From Pseudobutyrivibrio sp. (GTDB lineage Bacteria > Bacillota > Clostridia > Lachnospirales > Lachnospiraceae): a stretch of DNA of 39,311 nt. A program made the translations under genes and the position numbers. Positions 556-25,769 of the stretch are shown in pieces. Every line of letters starts with the position of its first letter. Position 1 is the first letter of the stretch. The notes beneath the pieces were generated by a model. It had not been told where the DNA came from and searched no databases. It saw only the letters and a program-made list of their open reading frames with translations. The DNA is taken from the NCBI RefSeq assembly GCF_015057185.1, contig NZ_SVEV01000032.1:1-39311 (forward strand), read 5' to 3'.

Positions 556-1107
556 ATGAATGAGAGAATATTAGAAGGCGCTTTAAATGTGTTTAGAGCA
601 AAAGGGCCTAAATTCACTATGGATGACCTTGCCGTAGAGATGAAAATGAGCAAGAAAACAATCTATTCTGTTTTTAGAGATAAAAATGAATTGATGTGTG
701 AAATGATGGATTATGCTTTTGACATGATTAAGGAAGCTGAGGACAAAATCTATTATGACGATAATCTTTCACTTGTTGAAAAGATATATGGCATTCTTGC
801 AGTTTTGCCAGAATCACATTACGGCTTTGATTATTCTGCTATGAGTAAAATGGCAGAGAAATATCCTATGGCTTATAGCAAGCTTAGAGAGAGATTAGAT
901 AGTGGTTGGGAAAAAACCTTTGAGCTACTTCAAAAGGGTATAGACGAAGGAGTATTCAAAGAGGTCAACATTAATATTTTCAAGTATATGTATGAGATAT
1001 CTGTTGATAGATTATTGATGGGTGATTTCCTTAAGGAGAACGATATGAGCTATCCTGAGGCATTAGAATCAGTAGTTAATATTATGGTTGATGGTATTGT
1101 TAAATAA
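556..1107 (+). CDS. TetR/AcrR-family transcriptional regulator
   Basis: This is a 183-residue DNA-binding repressor of the TetR family. The N-terminal helix-turn-helix (about residues 1-45) has the family pattern: RILEGALNVFRAKG, then TMDDLAVEM, then SKKTIYSVFRDKNEL. The rest is the all-helical ligand-binding domain, whose ligand cannot be read from sequence. I chose the ATG at 556 because AGGGGTG lies 5 bases before it and TetR proteins begin at this point. An in-frame TTG at 523 has no SD. It leads an operon of glycoside enzymes, with only 12 bases before the GH2 gene, so it probably controls them and itself. It is divergent from the 41-residue gene. Confidence 0.85.
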   Translation: MNERILEGALNVFRAKGPKFTMDDLAVEMKMSKKTIYSVFRDKNELMCEMMDYAFDMIKEAEDKIYYDDNLSLVEKIYGILAVLPESHYGFDYSAMSKMAEKYPMAYSKLRERLDSGWEKTFELLQKGIDEGVFKEVNINIFKYMYEISVDRLLMGDFLKENDMSYPEALESVVNIMVDGIVK

Positions 1108-1119
1108 AAGGGTGGAAAA

Positions 1120-3579
1120 ATGGCACAAAAGATTTACTTAGATAGAAAATGGCGATTTAATGAGGTTTTTACTGAGGAGATGATTAACGAGCCTATGACT
1201 GATTATGCGCTTGTTAATATTCCGCATACTGTAAAGGAGACTCCTATATCATATTTTGATGAATCTGTTTATCAGATGATTAGCTGCTATCAAAAAACTA
1301 TTTTTGCTCCACCTCAGTGGGCTGAGCAGGTTGTCAGTCTTACTTTTGAGGGTGTTGCACATGCGGCTGACGTATATGTTAACGGAAATCTTGCTGTTCA
1401 TCATGACTGCGGATATACAGGATTTTCAGTAGAAATTTCAGAGTTTCTTAAATTTGGTGAAGATAATCTTATTACGGTAAGAGTAGATTCCAATGAAAAT
1501 TTGAATCAGCCCCCATTTGGTTTTGTTATTGATTACATGACATATGGTGGAATTTACAGAGATGTTTATTTTGAGGTGAAGGAGAAAACTCACTTCGTAG
1601 ATGTTTTCTTGCAACCATCATTGCTTGAGAGGATTTCTACTAGCAAACGCACACCTAAACAAATCAAAATAATGAAGGTTCAGGGTGTTCTTAAAACTGA
1701 TTGTTATTTTACTAAGAATATATATAAGCTGGCTGCAGGAGATGGAGTTTTTATTAGACAATATCTAGATGATAAGCTGTTGCTATCTCAGCCTGTTAGC
1801 GGGTTAGAGCAGGTGGGGGATACATATCTTATGAAGTTAAATTCAGCCCCTGCTACAGTCAATTTGTGGGATATTGAAAGCCCTCGTTTATATCAGGTTA
1901 AGACCCAGCTCTTAATTGATGATAAGGTTGTTGATGAGCATGTGGCAAATGTTGGCTATAGAAACTCTGAATTTAGAAAAAATGGATATTATCTAAATGG
2001 TAGAAAAGTCAAACTAAGAGGTTTAAATAGACATCAGTCTTATCCATATGTGGGTTATGCTATGCCAGAGTCAATGCAACGTTTTGATGCAAGGATTCTT
2101 AAAGAAGAATTGGCACTTAATGCTGTTCGTACATCACACTATCCACAGTCACATTATTTTATAGATGAATGCGATAAGCTGGGACTCTTGGTATTTACAG
2201 AGATTCCTGGATGGCAGCATATAGGAAATGAGGATTGGCAGAATTTGGCAGTTCAGAATACCAAGGATATGATTTTACAGTACCGTAATCATCCTTCAAT
2301 CATATTATGGGGCGTTAGAATTAACGAGTCTCCTGATAATGATGAATTCTATAAAAAGACAAATGCTGTGGCACGCAAATATGATCCAACTAGACCTACA
2401 GGTGGTGTTAGATGCCATGCTAAAAGCTCACTGTTAGAGGATGTTTATACCTACAATGATTTTGTTCATGAGGGAAATAATAAGGGTTGCTGCAAGAAAT
2501 CAGATATAACCTCTGATGTGGAAAAGGCTTATTTGGTTTCAGAATACAATGGTCATATGTATCCTACAAAACCATTTGATGATGAGGAGCAGCGCCAAGA
2601 GCATATGCTTAGACATGCAAATGTTTTGGATGGAATTGCAGGAGAGCTTGATATAGCAGGTTCATTTGGTTGGTGTATGTTTGACTACAATACACACAAA
2701 GATTTTGGTTCTGGCGATAGAATCTGTTACCACGGTGTCATGGATATGTTTAGAAATCCAAAGCTTGCTGCTTCAGTTTATTCAGCTTTCTCAGAAACAG
2801 AAAATGTTTTAGATATATCTACAAGCTTTGATATAGGAGAGCATCCAGCCTGCAACAGAGGTAAGTCATTTATCATTTCTAATGCTGATTCTGTAAAGAT
2901 GTACAAGAATAATCAGTTGATTAAGGAGTACTTCCCAGAGAATTCTCCATACAAGAATCTTAAGCATGGTCCTATTTTGATAGATGACTATTTAGGTGAT
3001 GTCATTGAAAAGGATGGTAGCTATTCTAAAACAGAGGCTAAGCTTTTAACTAAGGTTTTAAATCACGTAGCTTTACATGGATTTAAGGTTACGCCACAGA
3101 TTGCATGGGCTAGCTTTAGACTGATGGCTTTCCATGGAATGAAGAAAAATGAAGCAGTACCTTTGTTTAACAAATTTGTAGGAGACTGGGGTGGCGCTTC
3201 AAAAGAATATCGCTTTGAGGCAATAAAAAATGGTCAGGTAGTAAAGACTGTAACCAAAGCACCTGCTGTTACACCTAGAATTGAAGCAAAGGCTAGCCAT
3301 ACATTGCTTACAGAACTGCACACCTATGATGTGGCGGATATAAGAGTTAAATTGGTTGACCAAAATGACAATCAGCTGTTTTTCTTTAGCCAACCGGTTT
3401 CATTCGAAATTGAAGGACCATTTGAGATAATAGGTCCAAAAACTGTTTGCCCAATGGGAGGAGCAACTGGTGTATATGTCAAATCCATTGGTGAAGATGG
3501 GGATGGCTATCTCACAATATCTGCAGAGGGAATTGAGCCAGTCAAAATCTGTCTTTCTGCAGAATGCTTAACAAAATAA
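1120..3579 (+). CDS. Glycoside hydrolase family 2 (beta-galactosidase/beta-glucuronidase type)
   Basis: An 819-residue retaining beta-glycosidase of family GH2. The order is a jelly-roll sugar-binding domain (about 1-180), an Ig-like domain (about 180-290), a TIM barrel from about 295 with LRGLNRHQ and NAVRTSHYPQS, then C-terminal beta domains. The acid/base is Glu403 in WGVRINES; the nucleophile is Glu475 in LVSEYNGH. The usual G-N-E before the acid/base is here I-N-E. There is no signal peptide, so it acts in the cytoplasm on imported oligosaccharides. The next genes are a GT-B protein and an alpha-galactosidase. Beta-galactosidase is most likely given the GH36 partner, but beta-glucuronidase or another GH2 activity cannot be excluded. 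Confidence 0.88.
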   Translation: MAQKIYLDRKWRFNEVFTEEMINEPMTDYALVNIPHTVKETPISYFDESVYQMISCYQKTIFAPPQWAEQVVSLTFEGVAHAADVYVNGNLAVHHDCGYTGFSVEISEFLKFGEDNLITVRVDSNENLNQPPFGFVIDYMTYGGIYRDVYFEVKEKTHFVDVFLQPSLLERISTSKRTPKQIKIMKVQGVLKTDCYFTKNIYKLAAGDGVFIRQYLDDKLLLSQPVSGLEQVGDTYLMKLNSAPATVNLWDIESPRLYQVKTQLLIDDKVVDEHVANVGYRNSEFRKNGYYLNGRKVKLRGLNRHQSYPYVGYAMPESMQRFDARILKEELALNAVRTSHYPQSHYFIDECDKLGLLVFTEIPGWQHIGNEDWQNLAVQNTKDMILQYRNHPSIILWGVRINESPDNDEFYKKTNAVARKYDPTRPTGGVRCHAKSSLLEDVYTYNDFVHEGNNKGCCKKSDITSDVEKAYLVSEYNGHMYPTKPFDDEEQRQEHMLRHANVLDGIAGELDIAGSFGWCMFDYNTHKDFGSGDRICYHGVMDMFRNPKLAASVYSAFSETENVLDISTSFDIGEHPACNRGKSFIISNADSVKMYKNNQLIKEYFPENSPYKNLKHGPILIDDYLGDVIEKDGSYSKTEAKLLTKVLNHVALHGFKVTPQIAWASFRLMAFHGMKKNEAVPLFNKFVGDWGGASKEYRFEAIKNGQVVKTVTKAPAVTPRIEAKASHTLLTELHTYDVADIRVKLVDQNDNQLFFFSQPVSFEIEGPFEIIGPKTVCPMGGATGVYVKSIGEDGDGYLTISAEGIEPVKICLSAECLTK

Positions 3580-5082: not shown

Positions 5083-7422
5083 ATGATTAGAGTGGAAGGC
5101 AAGGCCTTTTATCTAAATACAAAAAATACAACATACGCTTTTAGGGTTTTAGAGACAGGGCAGCTGGAGCATTTATACTACGGCAGCAGAATTACTGAAG
5201 CAAAGGAAATTTCTGTTATTCAGGAGAAAAGGACATTTGCACCAGGAAATACTGTTGTCTATGATAACGAGCATGGTGAACTGAGCCTAGAGGATGTTCG
5301 ACTTGAAACTTCTGCTATTGGTAAAGGTGATTTTAGAGAGCCAATGGTAGAGGTGGTATGCCCAGATGGCAGCACTAGTCTTGATTTTGTTTATGAAAAT
5401 CATGAGATTTTGGCTGGCAAAAAGGAATTTAAAACCTTGCCTGGCTCATATGGCAATGAATCAGATGTAGATACACTTAATGTAAAGCTGGTTGATAAGA
5501 ATAATGGCTATACATTGATTCTTTCGTATTTTGTATATGAGAATACTGATGTTATTACTAGAGCGGCCAAATTTATTAATACCTCAGATGACTCAGTGAA
5601 AATTACACGTATGTTATCCATGCTAATGGATTTTGATGAATCAGGTTATAAAATTACATCCTTCCATGGCAGATGGACTAATGAGATGAATAAATCAGAC
5701 ATGATTTTACCAGCAGGAAAGTACGTGAATTCTTCTTTTACTGGAACAAGCTCAAATCGTACAAATCCATTTTTTATCTTGTCTGAGGCAGATTCTACTG
5801 AAACCAGTGGCGATGTATATGGATACAACCTGATTTATTCTGGTAACCATTACGGTGCTGTTGAGGTTTCTCCTTGGGGCAAAACTAGAGTTGCATATGG
5901 AATTAACCCTCAGAACTTTTCATGGACATTGGAAGCAGGTGAAGAATTTGAGGCACCAGAGGCAGTAATGACATATTCGGATTGTGGTTTTAGAAAAATG
6001 AGCTTGAATATGCATGAGTTTGTTAGAAATCACATTACCCGAGGCTATTGGAAGGATAAAGAGCGCCCAATTCTTATAAATAGCTGGGAGGCTGCCTATT
6101 TCAATTTCAATGAAAGCTCTTTGCTTAAACTTGCAAAGCAGGCAAAAAAGGTTGGTATAGAGCTTTTTGTTATGGATGATGGATGGTTCGGAGATCGAAA
6201 TGACGACCACCGTGCTTTGGGAGATTGGGACATTGTTAATGGGAAGAAGCTTCCTGGCGGTTTAGAGGGACTATCGAAAAAGATTAATGATTTAGGCTTA
6301 AGTTTTGGTTTATGGGTTGAGCCTGAGATGATAAATGTGGATTCTAAGCTTTATGAGAAGCATCCGCAGTGGGCTATTGATATTCCAGGAAAGAATCATT
6401 CAGAAGGTAGAACTCAAAGACTATTAGATTTGTGCAATCCAGAGGTGGTTGAATATTTGACGCAGGTAATGAGTGAGGTATTTGCAACACCTGGACTTTC
6501 ATATGTGAAATGGGATTTTAATAGAAATTTCTCTGATTATTATTCGAAATACTTGGAGCCATCAAAGCAGCTTGAAGTAGGGCATAGGTATGTGCTTGGC
6601 TTATATAAGCTCCTAGGGGCTCTTACAAAGGAATTTCCAGAGATTCTAATCGAAGGCTGTGCATCAGGTGGAAATAGATTTGACCTGGGAATGCTTTGCT
6701 ATTGTCCTCAGATTTGGGCTAGTGACAATACAGATGCTTTGAGTAGACTTAACATACAGGAGGGTTATTCCTACGGATACCCTCAGAGCACATATACAGC
6801 ACATGTTTCTTCTTGTCCAAATCACCAGACACTACGTGTTACGCCAATGGAGACGCGCTTTGCAGTGGCAAGCTTCGGAGTGCTTGGCTATGAGCTTAAT
6901 CTTTGCGATATGAACAATGAGGATTTGGCAGCAACAGCAGCGGAGATAGAGCTTTACAAGAAATACAGAAGGACTCTTCAATATGGTGATTTTTATCGTC
7001 TATTGCAGGGGAACACAGTAGAGTGGAGCATAGTTGATAAGGATAAATCTACTGCAGTTACGATGGTAGTTCAAAAGGAAATACAGGCAGGAATTCAGTA
7101 CCTTAGAATAAAGCAGGCAGGACTAGATGCCACATCTAAATATCATTTCTTTGGAAGAAAGCTAGAGTACAACCTAAAAGGCTTTGGTGACTTAGTTAAT
7201 ACTGTGGCACCTATACATATCAAACAGGATGGACTGATTCATAATATGGTTGCTAAGTTTGTAAAGATGCCGGGAGAATTAGAGGATTATACTGCTAGTG
7301 GCGATGTTCTTAACAATGCAGGCGTTAAATTAAAACAGAATTATGTAGGCACAGGATATAATGAACAGGTGAGATATTTCCCTGACTATGGTTCGAGATT
7401 ATATTTTGCTGAGAAAGAATAA
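5083..7422 (+). CDS. Alpha-galactosidase, glycoside hydrolase family 36
   Basis: A 779-residue GH36 enzyme that removes terminal alpha-galactose from raffinose-type oligosaccharides and galactomannan fragments. It has an N-terminal beta-sandwich (about 1-320), a TIM barrel (about 330-650) and a C-terminal beta domain. Visible motifs are FVMDDGWFG, GLWVEPEM, KWDFNR with the nucleophile Asp478, CASGGNRFD and WASDNTDA with the acid/base Asp548. From memory, these positions match those of the Geobacillus AgaA/AgaB enzymes. The length fits the bacterial tetrameric subgroup. With no signal peptide it is cytoplasmic. It is the last gene of the TetR operon and ends at a hairpin terminator. Confidence 0.93.
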   Translation: MIRVEGKAFYLNTKNTTYAFRVLETGQLEHLYYGSRITEAKEISVIQEKRTFAPGNTVVYDNEHGELSLEDVRLETSAIGKGDFREPMVEVVCPDGSTSLDFVYENHEILAGKKEFKTLPGSYGNESDVDTLNVKLVDKNNGYTLILSYFVYENTDVITRAAKFINTSDDSVKITRMLSMLMDFDESGYKITSFHGRWTNEMNKSDMILPAGKYVNSSFTGTSSNRTNPFFILSEADSTETSGDVYGYNLIYSGNHYGAVEVSPWGKTRVAYGINPQNFSWTLEAGEEFEAPEAVMTYSDCGFRKMSLNMHEFVRNHITRGYWKDKERPILINSWEAAYFNFNESSLLKLAKQAKKVGIELFVMDDGWFGDRNDDHRALGDWDIVNGKKLPGGLEGLSKKINDLGLSFGLWVEPEMINVDSKLYEKHPQWAIDIPGKNHSEGRTQRLLDLCNPEVVEYLTQVMSEVFATPGLSYVKWDFNRNFSDYYSKYLEPSKQLEVGHRYVLGLYKLLGALTKEFPEILIEGCASGGNRFDLGMLCYCPQIWASDNTDALSRLNIQEGYSYGYPQSTYTAHVSSCPNHQTLRVTPMETRFAVASFGVLGYELNLCDMNNEDLAATAAEIELYKKYRRTLQYGDFYRLLQGNTVEWSIVDKDKSTAVTMVVQKEIQAGIQYLRIKQAGLDATSKYHFFGRKLEYNLKGFGDLVNTVAPIHIKQDGLIHNMVAKFVKMPGELEDYTASGDVLNNAGVKLKQNYVGTGYNEQVRYFPDYGSRLYFAEKE

Positions 7423-19191: not shown

Positions 19192-19210
19192 GATAAATAA
19201 TAGAACTTGA

Positions 19211-19256
19211 AAAATACCGTATACTCGAATAAAATTCGAATATACGGTATTTTTTT
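19211..19256 (+). terminator. Strong terminator of the exporter operon
   Basis: A long AT-rich stem reading AATACCGTATA on one side and TATACGGTATT on the other, extended by TTCGAAT-type pairing near the loop, with a run of T at 19250-19256. The exoA SD (GGAGG) starts a few bases later. Confidence 0.88.
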
Positions 19257-20079: not shown

Positions 20080-20253
20080 ATGGAAATGTCAGATACTAAA
20101 AAAGAAGCTACATTTGTAGTACGAGTTAATAAATCAGAAAATGGTAGTTGGCAGGGCCAGGTTACATGGGCTGACCGCGATGAGAAGATTTCCTTCCGCA
20201 GCGCCATGGAACTTGTAAGCGCCATCGACACCGCACTAGATTCTGAAGAATAA
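20080..20253 (+). CDS. Conserved-looking 57-residue protein, unknown function
   Basis: An excellent SD (AAGGAGG) precedes an ATG at 20080 that opens a 57-codon ORF. The product has a beta-strand pattern TFVVRVNKSENGSWQG, then QVTW, then FRSAMELVSAIDTAL. From memory, small Lachnospiraceae and Ruminococcaceae proteins with a W-Q-G ... W ... F-R-S-x-x-E-L pattern exist without known function; I cannot verify this here. It has no signal or membrane segment and would be cytoplasmic. Its stop is directly followed by a long hairpin (20254-20322) and the structured element at 20344. Confidence 0.8.
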   Translation: MEMSDTKKEATFVVRVNKSENGSWQGQVTWADRDEKISFRSAMELVSAIDTALDSEE

Positions 20254-20322
20254 AGTTACCATTCACAGTTCCATTATTTTGGTTGCGGCCGCTTCGTGCC
20301 ATGAGAACTGTGGGTGGTAACT
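20254..20322 (+). other. Long 18-bp hairpin in the 3' region of the 57-aa gene
   Basis: The arms at 20254-20271 and 20305-20322 pair over 18 positions. Sixteen pairs are Watson-Crick and two are U-G wobbles. The wobbles are allowed only if the plus strand is the RNA, which argues for plus-strand function. The 33-nt loop holds the GCGGCCGC palindrome, much richer in GC than its surroundings. It begins directly after the stop codon and has no T tail on the plus strand, so it is not a normal terminator. Confidence 0.65.
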
Positions 20323-20343
20323 GGATAAAAAGAGAAAAAAATA

Positions 20344-20430
20344 CCACGTAGCTATCAAGCTCTAAGGGTTACTCAAGTGAAGCATTTTAGCTGAACGGAG
20401 TGACCTCTTAGGCTTGAGAGCGTAACGTGG
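20344..20430 (+). ncRNA. Structured RNA-like element, copy A
   Basis: On the plus strand this 87-nt element folds into a closing stem CCACGT/ACGTGG (20344-20349, 20425-20430), a 6 x 8 internal loop ending in CGTA and a stem CAAGC/GCTTG. After a bulged T comes CTAAG/CTTAG, then an 8-bp stem GGTTACTC/GAGTGACC and an apical part with AGC/GCT. The same architecture recurs at 24771-24854 with different stem sequences. U-G pairs at 20370/20402 and 20378/20397 hold only on the plus strand. On the minus strand the same palindrome, followed by a T-rich run, may double as the argG terminator. I do not recognise a named RNA family. Confidence 0.65.
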
Positions 20431-20438
20431 GGGAATTA

Positions 20439-21662
20439 TTATTTCTGTTTTTGGTTTTCTTGGAGCTTCATAGCGCGTACCTTAAGTGGTAAGCCCCAGA
20501 GTGTGATGAAGCCTTCGGCGTCGTGGTGGTCATAGAGGTCACCAGTTGTAAATGACGCCAATGATTCAGAATAGAGTGAGTATGGTGAAGTTGTTCCAGC
20601 TTTGATGATGTTTCCTTTGTAGAGCTTGAATTTGACTTCGCCTGTAACGTATTCCTGAGTAGATTTTACAAAGGCCTGGATTGCATCGCAAAGTGGTGTG
20701 AACCATTTTCCTTCGTAGCATACCTGAGCAAGCTTATTGCCCATTTCTTTTTTCATTTCCATTGTCGCGCGGTCGAGACAAAGCTCCTCAAGCTGTGCGT
20801 GTGCTTCCATAAGAATAGTTCCACCTGGTGTCTCATATACGCCACGAGATTTCATACCTACAACACGATTTTCTACAATATCAACGATACCAATTCCGTT
20901 TCGTCCACCGATTTCATTTAATTCCTTAATAATGTCGGAAACCTTCATTTTCTTTCCATTTACGGAAGTTGGAACACCCTTTTCAAAAGTCATAGTTACA
21001 TATTCAGGCTTGTCAGGTGCCTTCTCAGGTGGAGTAGTAAGCATAAGAAGATGCTCGTAATTTGGCTCTAAAGATGGATCTTCTAACTCGAGACCTTCAT
21101 GGCTGATATGCCATAAGTTTCTGTCACGGCTATAAGACTGATCTGTAGAGAATGGAAGATTAATTCCGTGAGCTTTACAATAATCAATTTCATCCTGACG
21201 AGACTGGAGTTTCCATTTATCACTGCGCCATGGGGCAATTACTTTGATGTCTGGAGCAAGAGCTTTGATGCCAAGCTCGAAACGAATCTGATCATTTCCT
21301 TTTCCTGTAGCACCGTGGCAAATTGCAACTGCTCCTTCTTTGCGAGCAATTTCAACAAGCTTCTTTGCAATGCCAGGACGAGCCATAGCAGTACCAAGAA
21401 GGTATTTGTTCTCGTAAATAGCACCAGCCTGTACACAAGGTACGATATAGTTTTCAGAGAAATCATCTACAATATCTTCTATATATAATTTAGAAGCACC
21501 TGATGCTTTTGCTCTTTCTGAAAGACCATCTAATTCTTCTCCCTGTCCACAATCGATGCAACAGCAGATTACTTCGTATCCATAGTTTTCTTTGAGCCAT
21601 GGAATGATTGCTGTGGTGTCCAATCCACCTGAGTAAGCAAGTACAACTTTTTCCTGTGCCAT
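20439..21662 (-). CDS. argG: Argininosuccinate synthase
   Basis: A 407-residue enzyme that joins citrulline and aspartate with ATP to make argininosuccinate, the penultimate step of arginine synthesis. The PP-loop SGGLDT is at residues 11-16, and [13 protein letters not shown] and [10 protein letters not shown] are typical ArgG segments. The SD AAAGGAG lies before the ATG at 21662. It is divergent from argC with 277 bases between the start codons. argH is not adjacent, unlike in many clostridia. It ends at the structured element at 20344-20430, whose minus-strand copy plus T-rich tail could stop transcription. Confidence 0.97.
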
Positions 21663-21681
21663 AATAGTTCTCCTTTATGAA

Positions 21682-21700
21682 ATGTATTTATTATTTGCAT
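21682..21700. promoter_or_regulatory. Possible ArgR site in the argG leader
   Basis: ATGTATTTATTATTTGCAT has matching ATG/CAT ends and an AT-only centre, loosely like an ARG box. It lies between the predicted argG start site and the SD. The spacing differs from the E. coli/Bacillus consensus, so this is weak. Confidence 0.3.
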
Positions 21701-21724
21701 TTGTTAAAAATGAAATCTGAAAAT

Positions 21725-21753
21725 ACTGTACTACATTAAAGTAAATAATTCAA
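21725..21753 (-). promoter_or_regulatory. Promoter of argG
   Basis: On the minus strand TTGAAT (complement of 21748-21753) and TACAGT (complement of 21725-21730) are 17 bases apart. Transcription would start near 21718. Confidence 0.5.
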
Positions 21754-21806
21754 GCGGTAATTTATGCAAAAATATGGTATAAATATCAAAATAGTGAAAT
21801 TTACTA

Positions 21807-21835
21807 TTGAAATATTGAAAATATAGATGTATATT
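21807..21835 (+). promoter_or_regulatory. Promoter of the argC operon
   Basis: TTGAAA at 21807-21812 and TATATT at 21830-21835 are 17 bases apart. The start site would be near 21842, about 98 bases before the argC ATG. Confidence 0.5.
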
Positions 21836-21854
21836 TATGCAAAATTAATTCATA
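21836..21854. promoter_or_regulatory. Possible ArgR box at the argC start site
   Basis: TATGCAAAATTAATTCATA is an imperfect palindrome with TATG/CATA ends directly after the -10 box. The 12-mer ATTTATGCAAAA, which contains its left half, also occurs at 21760-21771 near the argG -35. Position suits repression by arginine-bound ArgR; the arg regulator gene itself is not in the window. Confidence 0.4.
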
Positions 21855-21939
21855 AAAATCTGCTGTAGCACTTTACTTTGTGAAAGTGAAGTACTACAAT
21901 GATTTCAGACAATTCATAAATACGGAAGGAATAAATATT

Positions 21940-22992
21940 ATGGTAAAAGTTGGAATTATTGGCGCGACTGGTTATGCGGGAGCAGAGCTTGTTAGATTAT
22001 TATATGGTCACAAGGAAGCTGAGATTGTTTGGTACGGCTCTAGATCATATGTAGATGAAAGATTTGCTTCTATATATAAAAATATGTTTACTTTGGTTGA
22101 AGATAAGTGTCTTGATGACAATATTTTAGAGTTATCTAAACAGGTGGATGTTATTTTTACAGCAACACCACAGGGGTATTTGGCTGGTGTTCTTACAGAA
22201 GAAATATTGAATAACTGCAAAATTATTGATTTATCTGCAGACTTTCGTATTAAGGATGTATCAGTTTATGAAAAGTGGTATGGCATAGAACACAAGAGCC
22301 CACAGTTTATTGAGGAGGCTGTATATGGACTTTGTGAGATTAATAGAGAAAAGGAGAAGGGGGCAAGACTTATAGCAAATCCTGGATGCTATACAACCTG
22401 TTCAATTCTCACTGCTTATCCACTAGTAAAGGCGGGCTTGATTGATCCTACAACACTTATTGTAGATGCTAAGTCAGGTACGTCTGGTGCCGGTAGAGGA
22501 GCAAAGCTTCCTAATCTTTATTGTGAAGTAAATGAGAGTATAAAGGCATACGGAGTTACAACTCATAGACATACACCAGAGATTGAAGAGCAGCTTGGGT
22601 ATGCATGTGGACAGGAGATTATGATTAATTTCACTCCACATTTAGTTCCTATGAATAGAGGTATTTTGGTTACAGAATATGCATCGCTTGTTAAAAAGGA
22701 TGGAAAGCTACCTACTAAAGAAGATGTTATGCAGGCCTACCATGATATGTATGATGATGAGTTTTTTGTAAGAGTTTTGGATTATGGACAGTGCCCTGAA
22801 ACGAAATGGGTTGAGGGAAGCAATTTTGTAGATGTAAGCTGCATGATTGATGAGAGAACAGGTCGTGTGGTGATGATGGGAGCTTTAGATAATTTAGTAA
22901 AAGGAGCTGCTGGTCAGGCGGTTCAGAACATGAATATAATTTTTGGACTTGATGAGAAGATGGGAATTGATTTTGCACCAATGTTCCCATAG
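21940..22992 (+). CDS. argC: N-acetyl-gamma-glutamyl-phosphate reductase
   Basis: A 350-residue NADPH enzyme that reduces N-acetylglutamyl phosphate to the semialdehyde. The N-terminal GIIGATGYAGAELVRLL is the dinucleotide-binding motif. ANPGCYTT carries the active-site Cys150, and the His of HRHTPEIEEQ completes the site. I start at 21940, where GGAAGGA lies 9 bases before the ATG and the protein begins MVKVGIIGATG as in the family. An in-frame upstream ATG at 21880 has no SD. It is the first gene of the argC-GNAT-argJ-argB-argD operon. Confidence 0.97.
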   Translation: MVKVGIIGATGYAGAELVRLLYGHKEAEIVWYGSRSYVDERFASIYKNMFTLVEDKCLDDNILELSKQVDVIFTATPQGYLAGVLTEEILNNCKIIDLSADFRIKDVSVYEKWYGIEHKSPQFIEEAVYGLCEINREKEKGARLIANPGCYTTCSILTAYPLVKAGLIDPTTLIVDAKSGTSGAGRGAKLPNLYCEVNESIKAYGVTTHRHTPEIEEQLGYACGQEIMINFTPHLVPMNRGILVTEYASLVKKDGKLPTKEDVMQAYHDMYDDEFFVRVLDYGQCPETKWVEGSNFVDVSCMIDERTGRVVMMGALDNLVKGAAGQAVQNMNIIFGLDEKMGIDFAPMFP

Positions 22993-23015
22993 CAGGTTTA
23001 TTCAGGAGTTTTATT

Positions 23016-23519
23016 ATGGTTACAACAAAAGAGAGTGTTAATGTTACTTTAGATTTAGGGGTTCATATGAATTACACAATCAAGACTATGGAAGAAAGCG
23101 ATTATGATGAAGTTTATAAGCTTTGGACAACGATTCATGGCTTTGCAATGAGAAGCCTGGATGATTCTAAAGAAGGGGTTGCTAGAGTATTAAAGAGAAA
23201 TCCAGGGTTATCTGTTGTTGCAGTTTCAGGTGGCAAGATTGTAGGTTCTATACTTGTTGGACATGATGGTAGAAGAGCTTGCTTCTATCATGTATGTGTT
23301 CATGAGGATTATCGTAAACACGGTATTGGAAAAGCAATGGCATCAGAAGCTATGATGAGACTTAAGGTAGAAGGAATCAATAAGATTCAGCTGGTAGCAT
23401 TCAAGGAAAATGCCCTTGGTAATGGCTTCTGGCAGGCTGAACAGTGGGATATGCGAGACGATTTAAATGTATATGACTTCGTATTAAACGAAGCAAATAT
23501 CACAGCATTTAATAAATAG
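23016..23519 (+). CDS. GNAT-family N-acetyltransferase in the arg operon
   Basis: A GNAT acetyltransferase of up to 167 residues. Acetyl-CoA motif A is visible as FYHVCVHEDYRKHGIGKAM, and the end LGNGFWQAEQWDMRDDLNVYDF fits the fold. Two starts are plausible. The ATG at 23016 has CAGGAG 7 bases upstream. The ATG at 23067 (150 residues) has AGGGG 5 bases upstream and begins where the family usually does (MNYTIKTMEESDYDEVYKLW). It lies between argC and argJ with short gaps. It could acetylate glutamate, but RimI-like or unrelated substrates are equally possible. Cytoplasmic. Confidence 0.85.
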   Translation: MVTTKESVNVTLDLGVHMNYTIKTMEESDYDEVYKLWTTIHGFAMRSLDDSKEGVARVLKRNPGLSVVAVSGGKIVGSILVGHDGRRACFYHVCVHEDYRKHGIGKAMASEAMMRLKVEGINKIQLVAFKENALGNGFWQAEQWDMRDDLNVYDFVLNEANITAFNK

Positions 23520-23528
23520 GAGATTACT

Positions 23529-24752
23529 ATGAAAGAGATACAGGGCGGAATTACAGCGGCAAAAGGATTTATGGCTGCAAGCACAGCTGCAGGAATAAAA
23601 TACCAGGGGCGCACTGACATGGCTATGATTTATTCAAAGGAGCCATGTGTCAGCGCAGGAACATTTACAAGTAATGTTGTGAAGGCTGCTTGCGTTCAAT
23701 GGGATATGAAAATAGTAAAATCAGACAAGCCTATGCAGGCTGTAGCTATTAATTCCGGTATTGCTAATGCATGTACTGGAAAAGAAGGCTTTGATGCCTG
23801 TGAAGCTACAGCAAAAGGTGTTGAGGCAGCACTTAATGTACCATTTGAATCAGTTGCTGTTGCATCAACGGGAGTTATTGGTATGCAGCTTCCTGTAGAC
23901 AAGCTTGTGTCAGGAGTTAAGGCTATGGCGCCTGATTTAGATGAAAGCATTGAGGCAGGAACTGCAGCATCAAAAGCCATTATGACAACAGATACTGTTA
24001 ATAAAGAAATCGCTGTAGAAATAGAGTTATCTGGCAAAAAGGTAACAATTGGCGGCATGAGCAAGGGTTCTGGAATGATTCATCCTAACATGTGCACAAT
24101 GCTTGCTTTTGTTGGCACAGATGTGGCAATTGAAAAAGAGCTTTTACAGCAGGCTGTCAGTGATGTTGTGGCAGATAGCTTTAATATGATTACAGTAGAT
24201 GGAGACACATCGACAAATGATACTATGATTTGTATGGCAAATGGACTTGCTGGCAATGAAAAAATAGTATGCAAGGATGATGATTTTAATAAATTTAAGG
24301 ATGCTCTTTCTTATGTATGTACATCACTTGCAAAGACTATGGCAGCAGATGGAGAGGGCGCTAGCAAATTGTTTGAGGCTAAAATCGTAAATGCCAAATC
24401 AAAGGAGGATGCCAAAACTTTGGCAAGAGCCATTGTAGGTTCTAATTTGTCCAAGGCAGCAATATTTGGTTGTGATGCAAACTTTGGTCGATTCCTTTGT
24501 GCTATGGGATATTCTGGGGCAGATTTTGATCAAAATGATGTAGAGCTTTATTTTGAAAGTGTAAATGGAAAACTTGAAGTATTTCATAAGGGAACACCGA
24601 TTGTATTTGACGAAGAGAGGGCCCTTGAAATCATGAAAGCAGATACAGTAACAGTATTTGTAAACATGAATGAAGGTGAATCAGAGGCAACAGCATGGGG
24701 TTGTGATTTAACATATGACTACGTAAAAATTAATGCAGATTACCGTAGTTAA
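23529..24752 (+). CDS. argJ: Bifunctional ornithine acetyltransferase / N-acetylglutamate synthase
   Basis: A 407-residue protein that recycles the acetyl group from N-acetylornithine to glutamate. It matures by self-cleavage before a conserved Thr. Here the site is GMIHPNMCTML, with Thr190 as the nucleophile; the residue before it is Cys where Ala is usual. Alpha chain about 1-189, beta chain 190-407. DGDTSTNDT and GCDANFGRFLCAMGYSG are typical. SD AGGAGA overlaps the stop of the GNAT gene. Whether it is bi- or monofunctional cannot be judged by eye. The 120 bases to argB hold the structured element copy B. Confidence 0.96.
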   Translation: MKEIQGGITAAKGFMAASTAAGIKYQGRTDMAMIYSKEPCVSAGTFTSNVVKAACVQWDMKIVKSDKPMQAVAINSGIANACTGKEGFDACEATAKGVEAALNVPFESVAVASTGVIGMQLPVDKLVSGVKAMAPDLDESIEAGTAASKAIMTTDTVNKEIAVEIELSGKKVTIGGMSKGSGMIHPNMCTMLAFVGTDVAIEKELLQQAVSDVVADSFNMITVDGDTSTNDTMICMANGLAGNEKIVCKDDDFNKFKDALSYVCTSLAKTMAADGEGASKLFEAKIVNAKSKEDAKTLARAIVGSNLSKAAIFGCDANFGRFLCAMGYSGADFDQNDVELYFESVNGKLEVFHKGTPIVFDEERALEIMKADTVTVFVNMNEGESEATAWGCDLTYDYVKINADYRS

Positions 24753-24770
24753 TTTAATATTTTTAAATGA

Positions 24771-24854
24771 GTCGGTAGGAGACAAGCTCTTATGTTTTGC
24801 AGCGAATCGTGTTAGATGAGCGGAAAAACAATAAGGCTTGTATACGTAACCGAC
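24771..24854 (+). ncRNA. Structured RNA-like element, copy B, in the argB leader
   Basis: This 84-nt element has a closing stem GTCGGT/ACCGAC (24771-24776, 24849-24854), a 6 x 8 internal loop AGGAGA/TATACGTA and a stem CAAGC/GCTTG. After a bulged T comes CTTAT/ATAAG, then GTTTT/AAAAC with one unpaired A, and an apical part with ATC/GAT. The bulge, loop sizes and order match copy A at 20344. It sits in the argJ-argB gap and ends 5 bases before the argB SD (AAGGAGG, 24860-24866), so it could influence argB translation or processing of the operon mRNA. Confidence 0.65.
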
Positions 24855-24872
24855 GTATTAAGGAGGATTAAG

Positions 24873-25769
24873 ATGGATATTAATATGCAGCCAATATTGG
24901 ATAAGGCCCAGGTTTTAATTGAGGCATTGCCATATATCCAAAGATTTAATCGAAAAATAATGATTGTTAAATATGGTGGCAGTGCCATGATTGATGAAGA
25001 GCTTAAAAAGCAGGTTATTCAGGATGTGACTCTTTTAAAGCTTGTAGGTTTTAAACCAATTATTGTCCATGGCGGCGGTAAGGAAATCAGCAAGTGGGTT
25101 GAGAAAACTGGCATGGAGCCAGAGTTCATCAATGGACTTCGCAAAACTGACGAAGCAACAATGGAAATTGCTGAGATGGTTTTAAATAAGGTTAATAAAT
25201 CCCTGGTGCAAAATGTTCAGGCCCTTGGAGTTAATGCTGTTGGCGTATCAGGCAAGGATGGCGGTTTATTAAAAGTAGAAAAGAAATATTCAGACGGTCA
25301 GGACATCGGATTTGTAGGTGAAATCACAGAGGTTAATCCAAAAATCTTAGAGGATTTGCTTGAAAAGGATTTTCTTCCTATTGTTTGTCCAATCGGTATG
25401 GATGACAATTTTGAAACATATAATATCAATGCGGACGATGCAGCCTGCGCAATTGCAAAGGCTTTAAATGCTGAAAAGCTTGCATTTTTAACAGATATCG
25501 AAGGCGTATACAAGGACAAGGATGACCCTGAAACATTAATTTCAGAAATGACAGTTGATGAGGCTAGAGCTTTAATAGGTGAGGGCTATATAGGTGGCGG
25601 AATGCTTCCTAAATTAAATAACTGTATAGATGCTATTGAAGAGGGAGTTAACAGAGTACATATTTTGGACGGCAGAATTGCTCATTGCCTGTTACTTGAA
25701 TTTTTTACTAACAAGGGAATTGGCACAGCTATTATAAGAAATCAGGATACGAGGTATTTCAATGAATAA
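24873..25769 (+). CDS. argB: Acetylglutamate kinase
   Basis: A 298-residue amino-acid kinase that phosphorylates N-acetylglutamate. KYGGSAM (33-39) holds the catalytic Lys and phosphate loop, and VHGGGKEIS (65-73) binds the substrate. [16 protein letters not shown] and [13 protein letters not shown] are C-terminal ATP-site motifs. An N-terminal extension of about 20 residues before the first strand is like that of arginine-inhibited hexameric ArgB, so feedback control is possible. I start at 24873 with AAGGAGG 6 bases before; the in-frame ATG at 24816 lies inside the structured element and has no SD. argD overlaps its last 8 bases. Confidence 0.97.

Follow-up and report, generated by a model that had tools for sequence, protein, structure and literature searches.

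R1, a family of interspersed hairpin repeats in Pseudobutyrivibrio that may act as exchangeable cassettes within intercistronic and 3'-end hairpins

The ERIC, BOX and NEMIS/Correia elements are non-coding hairpins of about 100 nt that lie between genes and are restricted to particular lineages, and REP sequences and REPINs occur within a genome as highly similar copies of a master sequence. We know of no ERIC, BOX or NEMIS/Correia element that is seated as an apical cassette in another hairpin or swapped with an unrelated family at one slot. Here we describe R1, a hairpin repeat with about 110 copies dispersed over the genome of a rumen Pseudobutyrivibrio sp. (G000, 3.25 Mb, 62 contigs), two of which, copies A and B, lie among arginine genes in a stretch of 39,311 nt (contig NZ_SVEV01000032.1, hereafter the window; Table 1). 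We lean towards reading R1 as a Pseudobutyrivibrio-specific family of REP/ERIC/BOX-like interspersed hairpins whose members would be exchanged as cassettes within nested hairpins, between cistrons and at 3' ends. For REPINs, hairpins in single-stranded DNA (ssDNA) or mRNA have been predicted (PMC3116915); another study lists GTAG repeats in Proteobacteria, Cyanobacteria, Chloroflexi and the PVC group, and a word search of it for Firmicutes gave 0 hits (PMC3733652).

Copies A and B are members of one interspersed repeat family. In their own genome, blastn (E ≤ 10) led to 43 places from copy A and 24 from copy B. A covariance model, for which 150 of 953 first-look candidates were scored, detected 108 places (E ≤ 7.2e-4); in the fetched own-genome stretches it detected 111 copies (E ≤ 1e-6). 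Among 61 genomes, the model matched 27 of the 29 from the genus (all except G006 and G020) and 0 of the 32 others; up to 68 candidates were scored per genome, and copy numbers are lower bounds. A pattern scan of genome contigs listed at least 112 stretches, 49 titled Pseudobutyrivibrio and 63 titled otherwise; 42 of the latter had a best E of 0.083, the remaining 21 gave nothing at E ≤ 0.001, and the relatives with R1 among the contigs listed are Pseudobutyrivibrio. The absence of R1 outside the genus is concluded mainly from the 32-genome comparison. Plasmids and phages gave no blastn match to copy A at E ≤ 0.01, and in viral contigs, where the pattern scan yielded 97 stretches and 80 were searched with the R1 model, the best E was 0.62. 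Rfam release 15 had 0 matches in the window at the gathering score, and four R1 loci at E ≤ 1 gave three weak matches, none on R1. A sequence-only reading of the window had first drawn attention to the two copies; both are present with their shared fold exactly where it placed them, and none of the outcomes that it said would refute it (no further homologues, no covariation, a known repeat) was observed. In the accessible portions of the literature, no description of R1 was found under Butyrivibrio/Pseudobutyrivibrio repeats, noncoding RNA or Lachnospiraceae stem-loop repeats, nor under BIMEs, BOX, ERIC or template switching.

The R1 core reads GTA ... CAAGC-U-CUUAG ... CUAAGGCUUG ... GUAAC, with an apical stem and a conserved loop on top. 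RNAalifold on 16 aligned copies led to 31 pairs, 19 of them changed on both sides. Across the 111 own copies, in an alignment fitted to the covariance model, standard pairs fill 97.5% of 3418 cells (71.2% when shuffled), double changes with pairing kept are found in 28 of the 31 pairs, and the covariation score is 0.692, against 0.179 shuffled and 0.057-0.082 slid. Because that alignment is model-fitted, a structure-free alignment of 58 blastn-found copies was also used, and 28 of its 30 top pairs by mutual information with average product correction lie on the hairpin diagonal (i+j 92-97). The internal loop, previously described as 6 by 8 bases, contains a helix of 3 bp across the family: columns 13-15 pair with columns 160-162 in 92-97% of the 111 copies, although copy B pairs little there. 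On the fitted alignment, whose cells are not independent, G-U cells outnumber A-C cells by 114:11, and by 55:7 in the 58 copies that blastn also found; one pair gives 29 G-U cells, and without it the ratio is 85:9. The ratio is 63:8 in copies with both neighbours in the same sense and 14:0 in copies with both in the opposite sense. Since G-U cells prevail in this way, the plus strand is the one that folds; the folding molecule would most simply be RNA, with plus-strand ssDNA as the alternative, and R1 is most likely transcribed. Copy A folds at -45.6 kcal/mol (z -7.28) and copy B at -30.5 kcal/mol (z -5.35), with 0 of 200 shuffles as stable in either case. The complementary strand of this long palindrome folds nearly as well, so the choice of strand relies on the G-U/A-C counts: the plus-strand fold proposed from two copies is upheld by the family counts and not by the energies. 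The covarying stems of an RNA family, also proposed from these two copies, are borne out by the 108 places, the double changes and the strong plus-strand G-U bias. Enlarged apical domains were seen in R1 at L062:230-383, L062:3367-3521 and L112:2764-2929. Additionally, one copy in G022 (C22:3924, L483) lacks the apical hairpin of 17 nt that is retained in two sister species, the rest being identical.

Placement relative to genes was obtained with a simple caller of open reading frames (ORFs) of 60 amino acids (aa) or more, by which small genes are missed. Among the 108 copies, 67 are located between same-sense ORFs, 20 have a convergent ORF downstream, 16 are antisense to both neighbours, 3 are divergent and 2 lie at contig ends; copy A was counted among the 16 despite the 57-aa gene before it. 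Between co-directional ORFs the sense orientation dominates (67 vs 16, p 1.4e-8). Where a same-sense ORF follows, 43 of 58 copies end 5-35 nt upstream of it (12 of 70 with negative spacing were left out). A motif resembling a Shine-Dalgarno sequence (SD) precedes the chosen start in 60 of 69 such copies, the start choice having given a bonus to such motifs, and the spacing from R1 to the start has a median of 24 nt (quartiles 19 and 42). R1 is placed mainly in sense immediately before SDs, or in either orientation in terminator-like stems past gene ends; an opposite-sense gene lies downstream of 37 of the 108 copies. The downstream genes are diverse: the commonest Pfam family is found in 4 of 69, Pfam revealed no functional theme among these 69, and DNA polymerases, PGK and tRNA synthetases are included.

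Around the core, an outer stem of at least 4 bp is present in 98 of 101 parsed copies (7 of the 108 were unparsed) against 86 of 5050 random spacings, a comparison favoured by the search model, which holds these pairs. Outside the GT/AC pairs, 49 of 66 parsed same-sense copies have an outer stem of precisely 4 bp, and the 34 copies with an opposite-sense gene downstream average 7.3 bp, up to 15. The sequence of the stem differs from copy to copy while complementarity is kept, which fits the arms of a host hairpin, and this is what the outer stem looks like. A profile of 57 same-sense copies revealed the frame TTAAATGA-GCnn ... nnGC-GGAYTA around R1. The commonest host, TGAG...CGGAYTA, also encloses the unrelated structured repeats X2 and X4. 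Scanning 2.0 Mb of overlapping fetched DNA, including 21 loci of other organisms, for this frame with a stem gave 68 distinct inserts (45 R1, 1 R1 with a further family, Y, 6 X2, 6 X4 and 10 other) and 1 case in the reversed control; as the DNA had been fetched around R1, the R1 share is inflated. By eye, the 10 others are three sub-stretches of R1, one R1 variant, three chance-like cases in coding DNA and three other hairpins. Many gene-end copies sit within terminator-like stems. At the end of argG, R1 occupies 5 of 29 loci and a plain terminator-like hairpin is found in several congeners; at argB, 6 orthologues carry the usual CGGAYT tail.

Orthologous operon junctions hold R1, X2, X3, X4 or nothing, depending on the species (R1 called by model, the other families by eye). 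In the 22 genomes with hbd, the thl-hbd slot contains R1 in 10, X2 in 6 and a truncated element in 1, and is empty (16-44 nt) in 5. The hbd-bcd slot contains R1 in 5 (one also with X3), X2 in 6 and X3 without the R1 hairpin in 3, one of which keeps an R1 remnant, and is empty (26-60 nt) in 8. Homologous outer arms of the CATTGCTC...GGGCAATG type surround either R1 or X2, depending on the species. Upstream of fabD, R1 was found by model in 2 of 28 loci and an X4-like element by eye in 7. Seven of 29 argB genes carry R1, and at the argG terminator a near-same element (0.921) is inverted between similar arms in G004 relative to G022. A model of X2 (R2) matched 27 of the 29 genus genomes and 0 of the 32 others; it has 12 copies in the own genome, and the highest count is 47.

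The other families were observed as follows. X2 (GCGCGAGCAAG ... CTTGCGGGAGC) lies at L506:2415-2521 (-), L086:3708-3815 (-), L101:11930-12037 (-) and other places, with slots in common with R1. X4 (AATGAGCCC ... GAGCGAAAGCGNGGCGAATG) is seated in R1's host frame at L086:~1700-1830 (-), at L063:~708-820 (+) and upstream of fabD in L540. X3 consists of paired TTTGCGAAGCAAA hairpins ending in GTCTTCCCG and is located behind hbd in L507, L508, L512 and L520, and at L068:~1077 (+). Y (CCAAAAGGATGATTGC...TTTTGTGGNCTAGTAAGC) occurs in the R1 apex at L154:~1387-1448 and, in the own genome, at L068:~5985-6046, within X4 in L534 and once alone (L215). Rfam returned a single weak and irrelevant match for eight loci with X2, X3 or X4.

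Three close congeners hold 43, 34 and 43 copies; in the comparison of 119 of these 120, 59 occur in just one of the genomes and 27 places are shared. The 38 same-orientation orthologous pairs divide into 17 with at least 95% identity, 17 below 80% and 4 between, and one further pair is inverted. In 50-nt windows the flanks are on average 85-94% identical for pairs of the first group and 83-92% for those of the second, with the exception of two windows left of the element in the second (69 and 77%), and one pair combines an element of 52% identity with flanking windows of 72-100%. For coding segments the identities cluster around 0.88, and 16 element-free intergenic control segments extend from 0.30 to 1.00; with a control this small and spread, the bimodal identity is suggestive and not proved special to R1. 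To judge from these pairs, R1 elements tend to be retained or exchanged in their entirety. None of 227 copies in four genomes has a same-genome paralogue of at least 95% identity (highest 0.942), so nothing points to a recent burst of copying. In Pseudobutyrivibrio records, 16 of 64 copies lie at the same place as an own copy, with both flanks homologous, although in one of them the left flank match begins 482 nt off (4 of 68 model matches were left out, and two rows with an offset of ~1 kb were dropped).

Like REP, BIME and REPIN elements, R1 is a short palindromic extragenic repeat, and the literature on those systems also describes mosaic arrays. Unlike them, R1 is ~85 nt long with conserved internal loops, is nested in host hairpins, and was found with neither RAYT linkage nor near-identical copies. 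The RAYT (Y1) family PF01797 is present in only 10 of the 29 congeners, and 18 Y1 loci, examined up to 1.5 kb on each side, contained no R1 at E ≤ 0.01. REP sequences are 20-40 bp palindromes with a GTAG tag at one end; the R1 core does start with GTA(G), but its GT is paired (G-C in 104 and T-A in 109 of 111 copies, other standard pairs making up nearly all the rest). As R1 departs from REP/REPIN in its RAYT association, in size and tag and in the similarity of its copies, membership in that group was rejected, and the REP-like repeat considered by the sequence-only reading stands as a kind and not as a family. In its manner of working, R1 comes nearest to the REP/ERIC/BOX repeats, and in kind it agrees with ERIC and BOX: its many dispersed intergenic copies share a conserved fold and are lineage-restricted. 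Part of the R1 copies also resemble intrinsic terminators in their long outer stem flanked by an A-run and a U-run, but ordinary terminators have no conserved repeat of ~75 nt in the loop; an A-run before the stem (at least 4 A in 6) is present in 21 of the 34 copies with an opposite-sense gene downstream. As far as the surveyed literature shows, the nesting in host hairpins and the swap with unrelated cassettes at one slot are new here.

If R1 is such a cassette, it would lie in operon mRNAs as a structured spacer separating the terminating from the initiating ribosome, and might in this way alter how the transcript of the downstream gene is processed, how stable it is or how translation re-initiates on it. 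In terminators it would make the hairpin larger and might shield the 3' end. Inserted or replacing elements would persist because a hairpin is retained at the site. A wider system is a possibility we raise tentatively: structured families without relationship to one another, such as R1, X2, X4 and Y, would enter the apical loop of a host hairpin or displace a family already there, both in terminators and at operon junctions immediately ahead of SDs. Several observations weigh against the cassette role. A clear U-run after the stem (at least 4 T in 6) is found in only part of the copies with an opposite-sense gene downstream, 10 of 34 versus 3 of 66 same-sense ones. The 16 copies antisense to both neighbours keep their G-U bias, which read-through from the neighbours does not explain; small upstream genes missed by the caller, as at copy A, may account for it. 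The 17 of 38 orthologous pairs with at least 95% identity are more strictly conserved than a role of structure alone needs. Finally, a purely parasitic element in tolerated spots would yield much of the same map.

This last point is the core of a selfish origin, in which R1 would be non-autonomous mobile DNA (MITE/REPIN-like) that folds as plus-strand ssDNA during transposition, has no RNA role for the host and is mapped where insertion is tolerated. Many dispersed copies, presence or absence at orthologous sites such as argB, either orientation within one orthologous terminator, and a plus-strand bias even in copies called antisense would agree with it; the lack of close same-genome paralogues, the scarcity of Y1 transposases and absence of R1 from their loci, the sense bias and the SD spacing do not, and we regard it as rather doubtful. 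A different doubt concerns the covariation itself, as template switching in quasi-palindromes, that is, arm-to-arm copying at replication, could make compensatory pairs without selection on RNA. The element inverted inside similar terminator arms between G004 and G022 recalls this, inversion being an event expected of long palindromes. However, bulges and wobble pairs would not survive such copying, whereas all through the 111 copies the bulged U and the A/GUA loop are maintained together with the G-U:A-C bias, and different elements at one place differ across much of their length, beyond the reach of arm copying; this origin is improbable.

Selection on RNA could also act through a trans-acting factor, R1 being the site of a global RNA-binding protein or of an RNase III-like processing nuclease and defining a post-transcriptional regulon. 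A conserved bulge, internal loops and apical loop amid freely varying stems are what such a site would display, and the SD spacing would suit it, but the gene-end copies and the diversity of genes argue for a generic role and unrelated folds fill the same slots in other species, leaving this explanation unlikely. A metabolite riboswitch, for instance for arginine, was among the options of the sequence-only reading, and two copies near arg genes, one of them structured ahead of argB, gave it some appeal. The diverse genes downstream make it very unlikely: R1 is found beside unrelated genes at 108 places, more than a third of them with an opposite-sense gene downstream, and at a minority of argB genes, so that the arginine riboswitch was rejected.

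Table 1. Features of the window around R1 copies A and B.
Feature	Position	Strand	Remarks
R1 copy A	20344..20430	+	outer 6-bp stem CCACGT/ACGTGG; covariance model 103.5 bits, E 2.5e-26
R1 copy B	24771..24854	+	outer stem GTCGGT/ACCGAC; covariance model 90.1 bits
Putative argG terminator-like unit	20335..20430	-	copy A outer stem, then TATTTTTTT on the minus strand
Variant host hairpin layer enclosing copy B	24760..24866	+	TTTTTAAATGA ... GTATT, then AAGGAGG (argB SD)
argB (presumed)	24873..25769	+	behind copy B; start placed after the SD
argJ (presumed)	23529..24752	+	precedes copy B
argG (presumed)	20439..21662	-	convergent with copy A
57-aa gene	20080..20253	+	precedes copy A

Concerning the two loci of the window, we presume the genes named in Table 1 to be argB and argG, as in the sequence-only reading, and argJ. 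An earlier ATG for argB in the ORF list (24816) falls inside copy B. Counts by eye agree with the 16 of 22 identical apical positions and the 5 bases between copy B and the argB SD given in the sequence-only reading; its overlap of copy A with the end of argG was refuted, as 8 bases lie between copy A and the coding sequence. Copy A would be an antisense insert in the loop of the argG terminator-like unit, and its outer stem with the minus-strand U-run looks like argG's own terminator. In several congeners a similar small gene adjoins argG (by eye). Apart from R1, a near-perfect hairpin of ~20 bp (20254-20322, -33 kcal/mol) lies right behind the stop of the 57-aa gene and has only weak matches (E 0.1) elsewhere in the fetched DNA. 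A repeat at 4-95 is 92% identical to L070:3670-3759 of the own genome, and a self-complementary, terminator-like stretch of 45 nt (19210-19254) is located behind an ABC transporter gene.

One genus carries structured cassettes, from dozens to ~110, in operons of basic genes such as the hbd and fabD junctions, and at some slots sister species have different ones. R1 also advises caution, as covariation and a position before a gene do not suffice for calling a riboswitch. With this family it can be tested directly whether bacterial interspersed hairpins behave as parasites, stabilise mRNA or insulate translation, and whether insertions are targeted to hairpin loops. If the nested arrangement holds true, these cassettes would represent a new class of hairpin-loop-directed elements or, alternatively, exchangeable intercistronic insulators that retune operon stoichiometry among sister species.

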